Positions 1 to 9,289 of a DNA stretch of 35,571 nt are shown in pieces (position 1 is the stretch's first letter; each line of letters begins with the position of its first letter). The DNA is from Candidatus Cloacimonadota bacterium. Lineage in GTDB: Bacteria; Cloacimonadota; Cloacimonadia; Cloacimonadales; Cloacimonadaceae. The stretch lies in the NCBI GenBank assembly GCA_017994635.1, contig JAGOKK010000010.1:1-35571 (forward strand). Reading direction: 5' to 3'. A program made the position numbers and the translations under genes. Under the pieces are notes generated by a model that saw nothing but the letters and a program-made list of their open reading frames with translations, had not been told where the DNA came from and made no database searches.

Positions 1-98
1 TGTAGGGTTTCCCCTTAACTTTTGTTTTTTTCCCTTTTTGCCTTTTGCAAGTTTGAAGGGGAAGGGATTAAGCTTTGAAGCGACCGTAAGTAGGAGGT

Positions 99-120
99 GC
101 AGGGGGATTTATCCCCCTGC
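99..120. repeat. Perfect inverted repeat at the broken 5' end of the RT
   Basis: Ten-base arms (gcagggggat / atccccctgc) are separated by only two bases (tt). The element ends six bases before the point where recognisable reverse-transcriptase coding begins (126). No T-run follows, so it is not a typical terminator on the + strand. It could be a REP/MITE-type element or the scar of the event that removed the 5' part of the RT. Bases 1-98 upstream contain T-rich and G-rich stretches and no gene I can support. Confidence 0.6.
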
Positions 121-125
121 CCGCC

Positions 126-743
126 AAGTATTTTGCCAGCATCGACCATGAGATTTTGCTTGGACTGATTAAAAGGAAGATCAAAGACCCCCATGTGATC
201 AAGCTCTGCGAGACAATTCTCGATAACCAGAATCTGAGCATGGGTTGCAGCCAGGGGACCGGCCTGCCGGTGGGTAACCTCACCTCGCAATTTTTTGCCA
301 ATATCTATCTCAATCAGCTTGACCACTTTATCAAACAGGTGTTGAGATATAAGGGCTATGTACGCTACATGGACGATTTCATCTTGTTTGCCGATGATTC
401 GCAGCGCTTGATAGACGACCTGCCTTTGATCCACGAATTTCTTGCCGCCCATTTGCGGCTGAATATCAAAGAGGGGGCTGCACAACTAAATAGGGTCAGG
501 CAGGGCATGCCGTTTTTGGGCTATCGTGTCTTTCCCCGCTTGCTCAGGATTCGCCGGGAAAATCTGAAGCGTTGCCTGCGAGGGATCTACCTGCAGGAAT
601 CGGCTTACGTCAAAGGAGAAATCGATTCAGAGATACTTTATCAAAGCACCCGTAGCCGGCTTGGCTTTATCGGCTTTGCCAATAGCCTGCGGTTGCAAAA
701 GAATATATGGGGCAAGGATCAGCAAGCGGTTCCAACCGTGTGA
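126..743 (+). pseudogene. DGR-type reverse transcriptase, 5'-truncated remnant
   Basis: About 205 codons of an RNA-directed DNA polymerase of the diversity-generating-retroelement class are readable. They begin inside motif A (KYFASIDHEIL, 126-158). Next comes the GNLTSQ form of motif 4 (273-290), which separates DGR reverse transcriptases from retron and group II intron types. The YMDDF catalytic box is at 366-380, followed by a PFLGYRVFP motif and a basic C-terminal thumb. Motifs 1-2 and the first catalytic Asp of motif A are missing: where families read D-I-x-K-Y/F-F this frame reads L-P-A-K-Y-F. An in-frame stop lies at 87-89 and no start codon with a ribosome site is present; the first possible codon (TTG 156) is inside the conserved core. 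The remaining part has no internal stop or frameshift, suggesting recent loss. The stop at 741-743 lies inside the template repeat. A defective enzyme is likely; an assembly or recombination junction near 99-125 is an alternative. Confidence 0.85.
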
Positions 744-850
744 AACGCGGCGGTAGCTGGAACAACAATGCCAACAACTGCACCGTTTCGAATCGGAACA
801 ACAACAATGCCACGAACAGCAACAACAACATTGGCTTCCGCATCTGTAGC
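728..850 (+). repeat. DGR template repeat (TR), adenine-rich
   Basis: In the frame set by 734-736 the DNA reads like the C-terminal core of a formylglycine-generating-enzyme/sulfatase-modifying-factor protein: N-R-V-x-R-G-G-S-W, then Asn clusters, ending I-G-F-R. In this stretch 15 codons are Asn (12 AAC, 3 AAT), concentrated at 761-829. Runs of AAC are the signature of DGR template repeats, because adenine-directed mutagenesis during reverse transcription turns AAC into many codons in the target's variable repeat. A real protein's variable region would show mixed residues at these sites. The TR directly follows the RT remnant and overlaps its 3' end. It has no gene context of its own (no domain upstream in frame), so I read it as template RNA, not protein. 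Exact ends need the matching variable repeat, which is not in the window. Confidence 0.82.
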
Positions 851-911
851 ATCTTTCAATCACAAGCCTGCTCTGCACGCACGGCAGGATGATAATGGGA
901 AATCCAGATCC

Positions 912-934
912 TTGTCCTGTTCCCGAAGGGACAA
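912..934 (+). other. Small hairpin downstream of the TR
   Basis: Arms ttgtcc (912-917) and ggacaa (929-934) flank an 11-base loop; an alternative fold pairs tccc (921-924) with ggga (928-931) around gaa. DGRs often carry a hairpin near the end of the repeat, but this one is short and may be chance. Confidence 0.3.
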
Positions 935-944
935 ATAGATCCTC

Positions 945-993: not shown

Positions 994-1264
994 CCAGATG
1001 CAAATATCGAAACTTATTCACATCCTGTATTGTACGATCCCTTCTGTTGTGGTTCAGCCAAGCCGGTTATTTGCAGCGAAAGTGATACTATTTGCAATTT
1101 TACTTGATACTTTGTATCTTTTTCCACAAACGGCTGGGGAAGCATCCTCCAGGATCCATGACTTCAGAGCTTGTTATCTCTGGGAGAAAATCTAGGATAT
1201 ACATTCTCAATATCTGCGATGAATTGATGGATTAAGCATTCAAAGGCTACAGACCTTTTTCTCC
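994..1264. other. Gene-free interval between the DGR remnant and rocD
   Basis: The short open frames here show no family resemblance, no convincing ribosome site and no signal peptide. I see no RNA gene. The interval is AT-rich and probably holds only upstream promoter sequence for the next gene. Confidence 0.5.
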
Positions 1265-5100: not shown

Positions 5101-6201
5101 ATGAACGACAAATATATAGTATCTCCCGCTCCGCATTTCCACGATAAGAGCACGGTCAAAAACGTGATGTGGAATGTGGTTATCGCCTTGATCCCCGCTC
5201 TGATCTTTGCTGTTTATTACTGGGGTCTGAGAGCTCTGATCCTCTCTTTGACGGGCGCCATCACCGCCGTCATCACTGAAGCTCTCATCCAGAAACTGCG
5301 TAAAGTACCTGTCACAGTGCATGATGGCTCGGCCTTTCTCACCGGCCTGCTTTTGGCATACAACATCCATGCCGGCGCACCGATCTGGCTGCCCATAGTC
5401 GGAGCAGCTTTTGCCATTGGCGTAGGCAAACAGGTCTTTGGCGGCCTGGGCAACAATCCGGTAAACCCCGCTCTGTTGGGACGTGCGTTCCTGCTTGCCA
5501 GCTGGCCCACGCAGATGACTGCAGGCTGGGTAGCGGTGAAAGGATCGGCCATGAGTGGGCTGAACAATCTATCCCGCATTGCTACAAATCTTCAGGAGCT
5601 TTCACCCAAGGCCTATGAACTGGTAACCGGAGCTACTCCCTTGAAGGTGGCTCAAACCCTGCGAGACAGCACATTTGTTTCCGATATAAACGCGCAAGCT
5701 GGAGGTCTGGACCTGGCTGGCAGAATCTTTGGCAGCCTCACCGAGATGGAGACCCTGAAGAGTCTCTTTTGGGGCAATATCGGTGGCTGTATTGGCGAAG
5801 TATCCGCTTTTGCATTGCTTTTGGGCGCAGCTTACCTATTGTGGAAAAATATTATAGAGTGGCGGATACCGCTTTTCTATATCAGCACGGTCTTTGTGCT
5901 TAGTTTCATCTTTGGCGGAATTCCTGGCAGCGGAACCTCCGTGATGTTGCCTTTCTTCCATATCTTTGCCGGCGGATTGATGCTGGGCGCGTTCTTTATG
6001 GCCACAGATTATACCACAACGCCGATCACCAAAAACGGACGCATTATCTTTGGTATTGGTTGCGGTTTGCTCACCATCGTGATTCGTCTGGTGGGCGGAT
6101 ATCCGGAAGGCGTAAGCTATAGCATTTTGTTGATGAACGTCTTTACCCCGCTGATCGATAAACTCACTATGCCGAAAGCCTTCGGAAAGGTGGCAAAATG
6201 A
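5101..6201 (+). CDS. rnfD: Rnf complex subunit D (covalent-FMN membrane subunit)
   Basis: A 366-residue RnfD/NqrB-family integral membrane protein with about nine to ten hydrophobic segments. The flavinylation motif TGATPL places the covalently bound FMN on Thr179. The C-terminal half (TDYTTTP, then GGYPEGVSYS) is typical of the family. The ATG at 5101 is chosen because it is one base after the rnfC stop and gives a normal N-terminus (SPAPHF, conserved in RnfD); a longer in-frame extension into rnfC is not plausible. It conducts electrons and probably Na+ or H+ across the membrane together with RnfA, E and G. Its stop overlaps the rnfG start (ATGA). Confidence 0.95.
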   Translation: MNDKYIVSPAPHFHDKSTVKNVMWNVVIALIPALIFAVYYWGLRALILSLTGAITAVITEALIQKLRKVPVTVHDGSAFLTGLLLAYNIHAGAPIWLPIVGAAFAIGVGKQVFGGLGNNPVNPALLGRAFLLASWPTQMTAGWVAVKGSAMSGLNNLSRIATNLQELSPKAYELVTGATPLKVAQTLRDSTFVSDINAQAGGLDLAGRIFGSLTEMETLKSLFWGNIGGCIGEVSAFALLLGAAYLLWKNIIEWRIPLFYISTVFVLSFIFGGIPGSGTSVMLPFFHIFAGGLMLGAFFMATDYTTTPITKNGRIIFGIGCGLLTIVIRLVGGYPEGVSYSILLMNVFTPLIDKLTMPKAFGKVAK

Positions 6202-6743: not shown

Positions 6744-7330
6744 ATTTTGTGAAAGAACTGACCAAGGGTATCATAAAGGAAAATCCCATCTTTGTGATCG
6801 TGCTGGGCATGTGCCCCACGCTTGCTGTTTCTTCATCGGTAATGAATGCTCTGGGTATGGGACTGGCAGCCACCTTTGTGCTGGTCTGCTCAAACATGTT
6901 TATCTCCATGATCAAAAATGTAACCCCATCCAAGATCCGCATTCCTGTGTATGTGGTGGTGATCGCGGCTTTTGTGACCATCGTAAACATGGTGATGGAG
7001 GCCTATGTCCCCGCCTTGCACAAGAGTTTGGGGCTGTTCATCCCCCTGATCGTGGTAAACTGCATCATCCTGGGCAGAGCCGAAGCCTTTGCCAACAAGA
7101 ACAACGTAATCATGAGCATCGCCGATGGCATCGGCATGGGCTTGGGTTTCACTCTGTCATTAACCGTGATCGGCACCATCCGGGAGATCCTGGGGGCGGG
7201 TACCTGGCTGAACTTGCGGGTGATGCCTGCCACCTATGATCCCATGCTGGTGGCAATCCTGGCTCCCGGTGCCTTTATCACGCTGGGCTTCCTGATGGCC
7301 ATTCTCAATCTGGTGAAGGAGAAAAAATGA
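6740..7330 (+). CDS. rnfE: Rnf complex subunit E (membrane)
   Basis: A 196-residue RnfE/NqrD-family membrane protein with about six hydrophobic helices. The GMCPTLAVSSS segment near the N-terminus and the VVNCIILGRAEAFA segment in the middle are family hallmarks; the conserved Cys residues in these half-helices are thought to bind the membrane-embedded iron centre shared with RnfA. Start ATG overlaps the rnfG stop (ATGA) and its stop overlaps rnfA in the same way. Confidence 0.95.
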   Translation: MNFVKELTKGIIKENPIFVIVLGMCPTLAVSSSVMNALGMGLAATFVLVCSNMFISMIKNVTPSKIRIPVYVVVIAAFVTIVNMVMEAYVPALHKSLGLFIPLIVVNCIILGRAEAFANKNNVIMSIADGIGMGLGFTLSLTVIGTIREILGAGTWLNLRVMPATYDPMLVAILAPGAFITLGFLMAILNLVKEKK

Positions 7331-7944: not shown

Positions 7945-8967
7945 ATGATGTTGACGATAGTAATCCTGCAATCCACATTTTCGGCCATCGGAATCCCGGT
8001 GATCGTGATCGGAGCTCTCGGCCTGGCCTTTGGCTTGATCCTGGCATTTGCTGCCAAGGTATTTGAAGTAAAGATCGATCCACGCGTGGAAGCCATCATA
8101 TCGGCCCTGCCAGGTGCCAATTGCGGCGCTTGCGGACTGGCCGGTTGCGCGGGCTACGCAGATAAAATCGTACACGGCGGCGAAGCTGTAAATAAATGCG
8201 CTCCCGGAGGTGCTGCTGTGGCAGCCACCATCGCCAAAATCATGGGAGTTTCCGCCGAAGCGATGCAGCAGAAAGTGGCGGTAATTCATTGCAGCAGCGG
8301 CGGTAAGGATAATACCCGCTGGAAGTATCACTACGATGGCGTAAGTTCCTGCAAGGCAGCCGTGAATGTGGCCGGTGGACCCAATAGCTGCTCCTGGGGC
8401 TGTTTGGGCTTAAACGATTGTCAGGCTGCCTGTATGTTCGATGCCATCTCTGTGGATGCCAATGGCATGCGCGTGATCGATTATGAAAAGTGCACCGCAT
8501 GTGGCGCTTGCGTAAGAGCCTGCCCCAGACAGCTCATCATGCTGATCCCGATCAATCGCAATGTATATATCAAATGCTCGTCCAAAGAAAAGGGACCCGA
8601 TGCCAAAGCAGTTTGTGGCAGTACTCATCCTTGCATCGCTTGCGGCATCTGCAGCCGTAAATGCCCCGTACAAGCCATCACTGTAAAGGACAATCTTGCC
8701 CGTATCGATTACGATAAGTGCATCAATTGCGGACTCTGCGCCACGGTATGCCCCACGAAAGCAATCCAGGATCTGCTGGCCGGCTGCCGCAAGAAAGCCG
8801 AGATCAATCCAGAAGCCTGCATTGGCTGCACCATCTGTGCCAAAGTATGCCCGGTAACCGCCATCAGTGGCGAATTGAAGCAGGTACACACTGTGGATAA
8901 AGATACCTGCATCGGTTGCGAACAGTGCGTAGCCAAGTGCCCCAAAAAAGCTATTGAGATGGTGTAG
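7945..8967 (+). CDS. rnfB: Rnf complex subunit B (multi-cluster ferredoxin subunit)
   Basis: A 340-residue RnfB, the entry point for electrons from ferredoxin. One N-terminal membrane helix is followed by the family's own Fe-S domain with Cys60, 63, 68 and 85. The C-terminal half then holds six ferredoxin-like Cys groups: one atypical (C-SWG-C-LGLND-C-QAA-C) and five classical CxxCxxCxxxCP motifs. This arranges as three tandem 2[4Fe-4S] modules, suggesting seven clusters in all, more than the short proteobacterial RnfB. ATG 7945 or the adjacent ATG 7948 may be used. It is the last gene of the operon; a strong terminator begins 22 bases after it. Confidence 0.95.
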   Translation: MMLTIVILQSTFSAIGIPVIVIGALGLAFGLILAFAAKVFEVKIDPRVEAIISALPGANCGACGLAGCAGYADKIVHGGEAVNKCAPGGAAVAATIAKIMGVSAEAMQQKVAVIHCSSGGKDNTRWKYHYDGVSSCKAAVNVAGGPNSCSWGCLGLNDCQAACMFDAISVDANGMRVIDYEKCTACGACVRACPRQLIMLIPINRNVYIKCSSKEKGPDAKAVCGSTHPCIACGICSRKCPVQAITVKDNLARIDYDKCINCGLCATVCPTKAIQDLLAGCRKKAEINPEACIGCTICAKVCPVTAISGELKQVHTVDKDTCIGCEQCVAKCPKKAIEMV

Positions 8968-8989
8968 CCACACCACAAAGCTATATCCG

Positions 8990-9014
8990 CCCCGGCCTGA
9001 AAAGCCGGGGTTTT
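8990..9014 (+). terminator. Terminator of the rnf operon
   Basis: Seven-base GC arms (ccccggc 8990-8996, gccgggg 9004-9010) around a seven-base loop are followed by tttt. It is placed directly after rnfB and is a classical intrinsic terminator. Confidence 0.88.
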
Positions 9015-9099
9015 ACTTACTCTCCAAATCTATGAGATTTGAGATATGAGGATTAGTCGACGCAGAGGGTGCATGTAGCTCTTACTGGCTGATGTCTCC

Positions 9100-9169
9100 C
9101 ACACATCTCAAGCACATGTCAAACACATTCCAAGCCCCGCTTAGGATGTATTTGGGATGATCTTGGACA
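9100..9169 (-). repeat. Dispersed intergenic repeat, copy 1 (reverse orientation)
   Basis: Read on the - strand, this roughly 60-70 base segment aligns with 26762-26820 on the + strand. Shared blocks are catcccaaa, tcctaagcg, ggcttgg, atgtg and a second ttg-atgtg. It contains an inverted pair (atcccaa ... ttggatg-like) and a near-tandem cttgggatgtg unit. It encodes nothing supported. Confidence 0.65.
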
Positions 9170-9232
9170 GCGCGGTACTTAACAGGTCGGGGGAGAGTAC
9201 TGAAAAATGGGTTTTCCAAATCATAAATCAGC

Positions 9233-9238
9233 TTGACA
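9233..9238 (+). promoter_or_regulatory. TTGACA -35-like box upstream of the 9290 gene
   Basis: The box lies 51 bases before the ATG at 9290. A possible -10 (ttgtag, 9257-9262) follows at 18 bases. It belongs to the set of TTGACA boxes found at similar distances before other first genes here. Confidence 0.35.
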
Positions 9239-9289
9239 TGCATAGCCTCTTTGCTTTTGTAGGCAAAAACATAAACAGTAGGATGAATC

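Follow-up and report, generated by a model that had tools for sequence, protein, structure and literature searches.

The start of the window, by which we mean the whole analysed stretch of 35,571 nucleotides, is very probably the right half of a transposase-less transposon that carries a diversity-generating retroelement (DGR), was inserted recently and was stripped of its mutator genes after, or just before, that insertion. The window corresponds, from base 1, to contig C73 of genome G000, a 92% complete MAG assembled in 149 contigs, and begins at the contig end. Genome G004, from a sister species of the same genus, was used as the intact reference (DGR locus L063). A search of Rfam gave no match at the gathering score. 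The argument draws on the following features.

Positions 1-18, plus strand: last codons of the DGR target gene (CRVSP-stop), directly after the variable repeat (VR), 100% identical to the end of the 525-aa G004 target.
Positions 99-120, no strand assigned: hairpin downstream of the VR, with a 9-bp stem (GCAGGGGGA/TCCCCCTGC) and a 4-nt loop; DNA folding energy -13.7 kcal/mol, z -5.1.
Positions 122-127, plus strand: deletion junction at the 6-bp repeat CGCCAA, with 1187 bp missing by comparison with G004.
Positions 123-743, plus strand: C-terminal remnant of the DGR reverse transcriptase (RT), covering residues 138-343 of 343 and lacking the motif A catalytic Asp.
Positions 725-849, plus strand: template repeat (TR), identical to the G004 TR.
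Positions 880-939, plus strand: stretch following the TR, also conserved in an RT-less relative (locus L119, 81% identity across 63 bp).
Positions 1047-1116, plus strand: transposon right end with two repeats of about 21 nt and a terminal inverted repeat at 1090-1116; matches the right end of locus L118 at 80% over 70 bp.
Positions 1117-1121, no strand assigned: target-site duplication TCTTT, with its other copy beside the left end on contig C65.

The intact G004 cassette consists, in this order, of a 280-aa ORF, a 525-aa target gene with an FGE-sulfatase-like domain, a 146-aa HRDC gene, a 112-aa bAvd gene, a 343-aa RT and the TR. Window positions 1-127 and 122-1116 match this cassette with zero substitutions, and the 1187 bp that lie in G004 between two copies of CGCCAA are missing, comprising HRDC, avd (the G004 bAvd scores 65 bits) and the N-terminus of the RT with the catalytic Asp136. 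A preliminary description of this DNA had suggested very recent inactivation, which the absence of any substitution relative to an intact copy over both intervals bears out.

What is left of the RT amounts to its C-terminal 60% and is 100% identical to the corresponding part of the intact G004 protein; its named close relatives are mainly Candidatus Cloacimonadota MAGs, and a search of viral contigs with the RT returned no relative. The frame at 126-743 scores 46 bits against Pfam RVT_1, covering only profile positions 78-204 of 205, and alignment with full-length relatives (335-349 aa) places its beginning after Asp136 of motif A (KLDIAKYF). The G004 copy displays the SQ motif, the YxDD box and all the catalytic motifs expected of a DGR RT; the window copy keeps SQ and YMDD, with D136 gone. 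Profile coverage, full-length alignment and comparison with G004 agree with the earlier view of a broken DGR, and its component observations stand: GNLTSQ and YMDDF both lie in the frame at 126-743, the first catalytic Asp falls in the missing part of the alignment, and upstream the open frame extends no farther than about position 90, with no ATG close to the break. Because RT, Avd and HRDC are gone, the window copy would be incapable of diversification in cis.

The remainder of the unit is found on contig C65 of the same assembly (L121), which contains the left end and the 280-aa ORF together with the 408 codons at the 5′ end of the target gene, and is 99.2% identical to G004. Between C65 and the window, which holds the TR, lies an unassembled gap of 335 bp containing the unit's own VR, the adjacency of the two contigs being based on the shared duplication and on similarity to G004 rather than on reads. 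The target gene has a C-type-lectin-like C-terminal VR domain, for which the G004 copy scores 112 bits against FGE-sulfatase. Compared with the reverse complement of L063 at 5913-5950, C65 shows about 14 clustered differences in the target gene within 2.4 kb of otherwise near-identical sequence, which may reflect gene conversion or mixed-strain assembly.

The deletion junction falls 1 nt after the hairpin, which is located about 80-95 nt past the end of the target gene and is present in five of the six sibling cassettes whose post-VR sequences were examined. Retrohoming in BPP-1 requires a hairpin just downstream of the VR (4-34 bp in phage DGRs; PMC3240598); the window hairpin lies farther from the VR and has a different loop, and it may share the role of its BPP-1 counterpart. 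The 1187 bp would have been lost between the CGCCAA copies beside this hairpin, after or just before insertion, most simply through replication slippage, and the deletion would since have become fixed in the population. An appreciable, though clearly smaller, probability attaches to the alternative that only a minority of the population carries the deletion, or that it arose artificially at the hairpin in the library or the assembly, and that the DGR at this position is intact, and possibly active, in the population. The proximity of the junction to so strong a hairpin and the identity of the remainder of the unit to an intact copy are in keeping with this alternative. So is the termination of both contigs near the VR, an effect expected if the VR varies within the population, although repeated FGE-domain sequence could produce it too. 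Conversely, the 6 bp shared at the junction are far shorter than assembly k-mers, so that the assembler would have needed real junction-spanning reads, and the missing 1187 bp appear nowhere in the G000 assembly, even if a 1.2-kb contig carrying them may have gone unbinned.

The TR was first recognized from its codon content, and reading confirms 15 Asn codons, 12 of them AAC. In G004, 16 of the 41 adenines of the TR are altered in the VR, against 0 of its 84 remaining bases (Fisher p = 1.7e-9), and in five sibling cassettes TR and VR of the same cassette differ at 16-25 adenines and at no more than one other base each. Since the identical G004 TR is paired with a VR showing adenine-only changes, the segment at 725-849 is a genuine TR, and an ordinary coding gene or a chance AAC-rich sequence is ruled out. 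Its reported overlap with the RT stop is confirmed and is the usual arrangement: G004 and five of six further sibling cassettes show it too. The preliminary description had further taken the undecayed state of the TR as a sign of recent inactivation or continued use; the TR is indeed undecayed, but this says little, since the dead RT remnant is equally free of decay.

Its second suggestion, that a DGR RT encoded at another locus of G000 continues to use the TR, we regard as very improbable. The TR is intact, and trans-acting DGRs have been reported in Thiohalocapsa PB-PSB1 (PMC10907252), but neither another DGR-type RT nor an avd or HRDC homologue of this cassette family was found in the G000 assembly (92% complete). 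Apart from the remnant, the assembly yielded a single RT, on contig C76, which carries QGGVISP in place of the DGR SQ motif and is thereby ruled out as a substitute. Contig C62 (L027) holds, at 6996-7274, a 5′-truncated fragment of a target gene with a VR-like end, followed by post-VR sequence as in window positions 1-62. This VR-like end differs from the TR at 25 adenines and at 16 other positions; the latter imply that the window TR was not its recent writer, rule it out as a current target and argue against a TR still in service. Judging from its sequence, the C62 stretch is a relic of an older or different DGR. Under the preferred reading of a recently stripped transposon, the TR would now lie unused and the target gene could no longer vary unless the cell harbours a complete DGR; diversification or transposition of the unit in trans is possible.

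The right boundary of the unit is sharply defined. Similarity to G004 ends at position 1116, beyond which the chromosome resembles another G004 contig at just 79% identity, and a 27-bp end motif, found as paired inverted ends, has its outermost base at 1116; the right end in the window attains a motif score of 35.5 against a shuffled maximum of 11.8. A chimeric contig, in which positions 1-1116 from the G004 species were misjoined to G000, would account for near-100% identity to another species that stops abruptly at 1116 next to a 79% flank, but it is highly implausible, because the break coincides to the base with the end of a transposon, whose opposite end stands on an independent contig, C65, next to an identical TCTTT.

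DGR units bounded by inverted ends and flanked by 5-bp duplications occur in four genomes: G000 (TCTTT), G004 (CTTAA; 5029 bp, ends at L063 5101-5127 and 10103-10129), G035 (AGGTT; 4937 bp, with a 1-nt shift needed at the right end) and G002 (ATGAT; 5083 bp). The end motif has matches in 10 of 40 genomes, with 46 in the 39 genomes other than G000 and 0 for the reversed control. A scan of 67 DGR loci from many phyla for inverted repeats with 5-bp duplications recovered just the units of G004 and G002; as each run with shifted controls produced 2-7 matches by chance, the generic inverted-repeat scan is not specific on its own. The single-contig genome G020 contains a 63%-identical DGR without recognizable ends. 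In G000, the insertion would have taken place between the C65 flank and an aminotransferase gene; synteny comparison did not find the C65 flank genes beside the aminotransferase genes of other genus members, and no empty site is therefore demonstrable.

A candidate source of transposase is provided by a 10.4-kb element of G004 (L118, contig C3) with the same ends and the duplication GCCAC, which encodes a 663-aa transposase (Mu-transpos_C, with PDB matches to TnsB) and an AAA/TniB-like ATPase. Its left 281 bp are 79% identical to the left end of the G004 DGR element and its right 70 bp are 80% identical to the window. No transposase gene was found among the ORFs of the DGR units, as an autonomous element would require; they have ends in common with a transposase-encoding element and 5-bp target-site duplications, as is characteristic of non-autonomous TnsB/TniA-type elements. 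Close homologues of the L118 transposase are common in the family, but the G000 assembly yielded only a 44-aa transposase piece, at a contig end. Based on these sequence comparisons, L118 is probably the helper for the DGR units. An intact unit of about 5.0 kb would carry the 280-aa ORF, the target gene with its VR, HRDC, bAvd, RT and TR as cargo, and its 27-bp ends would be recognized by a TnsB/TniA-like transposase acting in trans, generating the 5-bp target duplications. The intact form would diversify its VR by adenine-mutagenic reverse transcription of TR RNA, a function that we infer from its family and from the adenine-only differences between TR and VR.

Shorter relatives share these ends. 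A 3.3-kb element of G018 (L119, contig C2, 709-4010; duplication ACTGG) contains the target gene and VR and lacks HRDC, avd, RT and TR, and an element on G004 contig C45 (L126, 3359-3914) has the same ends and is interrupted by the contig end. Both have kept the post-TR sequence, and both may be targets in trans. A relative in G023 measures 464 bp and is flanked by the duplication GGATC.

In most of its components the cassette resembles described DGRs with HRDC and Avd, HRDC and MSL being known DGR accessories (PMC10053308): intact siblings combine an RT bearing GNLTSQ and YMDD with bAvd, HRDC, a TR and adenine-specific TR/VR changes, and the VR lies in a C-terminal FGE-sulfatase-like domain. 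The window copy differs in having lost HRDC, avd and the RT N-terminus. In Thiohalocapsa PB-PSB1, mobile elements and MITE-like repeats occur at DGR loci, RT-deleted variants exist and diversification in trans has been proposed (PMC10907252). Mobile elements at the locus and an RT-deleted variant are common to both systems; the repeats and insertions in PB-PSB1 lie within or beside DGR loci (PMC10907252), whereas in the present case a pair of inverted ends, flanked by a target duplication, encloses the entire cassette, in four genomes. The parts of the DiGReF survey considered here note DGRs near Tn7-type sequences, propose transposon-borne transfer and interpret truncated RTs with adenine-only TR/VR differences as very recent inactivation (PMC3521204); base-precise ends and target duplications, as given here, are not described in those parts. 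Hankyphage, a transposable Bacteroides phage with a DGR (PMC12135933), likewise has its DGR on a transposing element, whereas the DGR unit reported here is devoid of phage genes. The proximity of DGRs to transposons, the truncation of DGR RTs and variants with a deleted RT have already been published (PMC3521204, PMC10907252). To this, the present analysis adds precise limits for the unit, the duplications of its target sites and a candidate transposase, with an earlier description possible outside the open-access literature searched.

The Mu-transpos_C domain and AAA/TniB-like ATPase of L118, the repeated end sites of about 21 nt and the 5-bp duplication are shared with DDE transposons of the Tn7, Tn5053 and Mu types. 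Unlike these, the DGR units contain no transposase and their ends begin with TATAAAG or TACAAAG, whereas Tn7 and Mu ends begin with TG.

DGRs are scattered across bacteria, and their vectors have mostly been inferred from nearby mobile genes. Because the unit is delimited to the base, shows target duplications at four DGR insertions and has a candidate helper transposase, DGR transposition becomes directly testable, and the window illustrates a unit that has lost its mutator yet keeps its variable gene and template. More tentatively, TnsB/TniA-type transposons of Cloacimonadota might spread both complete DGRs and RT-less derivatives, such as those in the window, in L119 and on G004 C45, that are re-diversified in trans; if so, mobile hypermutation cassettes would have an ecology of autonomous and non-autonomous forms.

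Two minor observations concern the wider distribution of related sequence. Short MITE-like pairs of the end motif, without a 5-bp duplication, occur on G004 contig C62 (L123, 6768-7150) and on G008 contig C2 (L124, 2573-2704). Within the L118 element, at 8380-9246, lies an FGE-sulfatase-like gene that at its end resembles the VR and the post-VR sequence.
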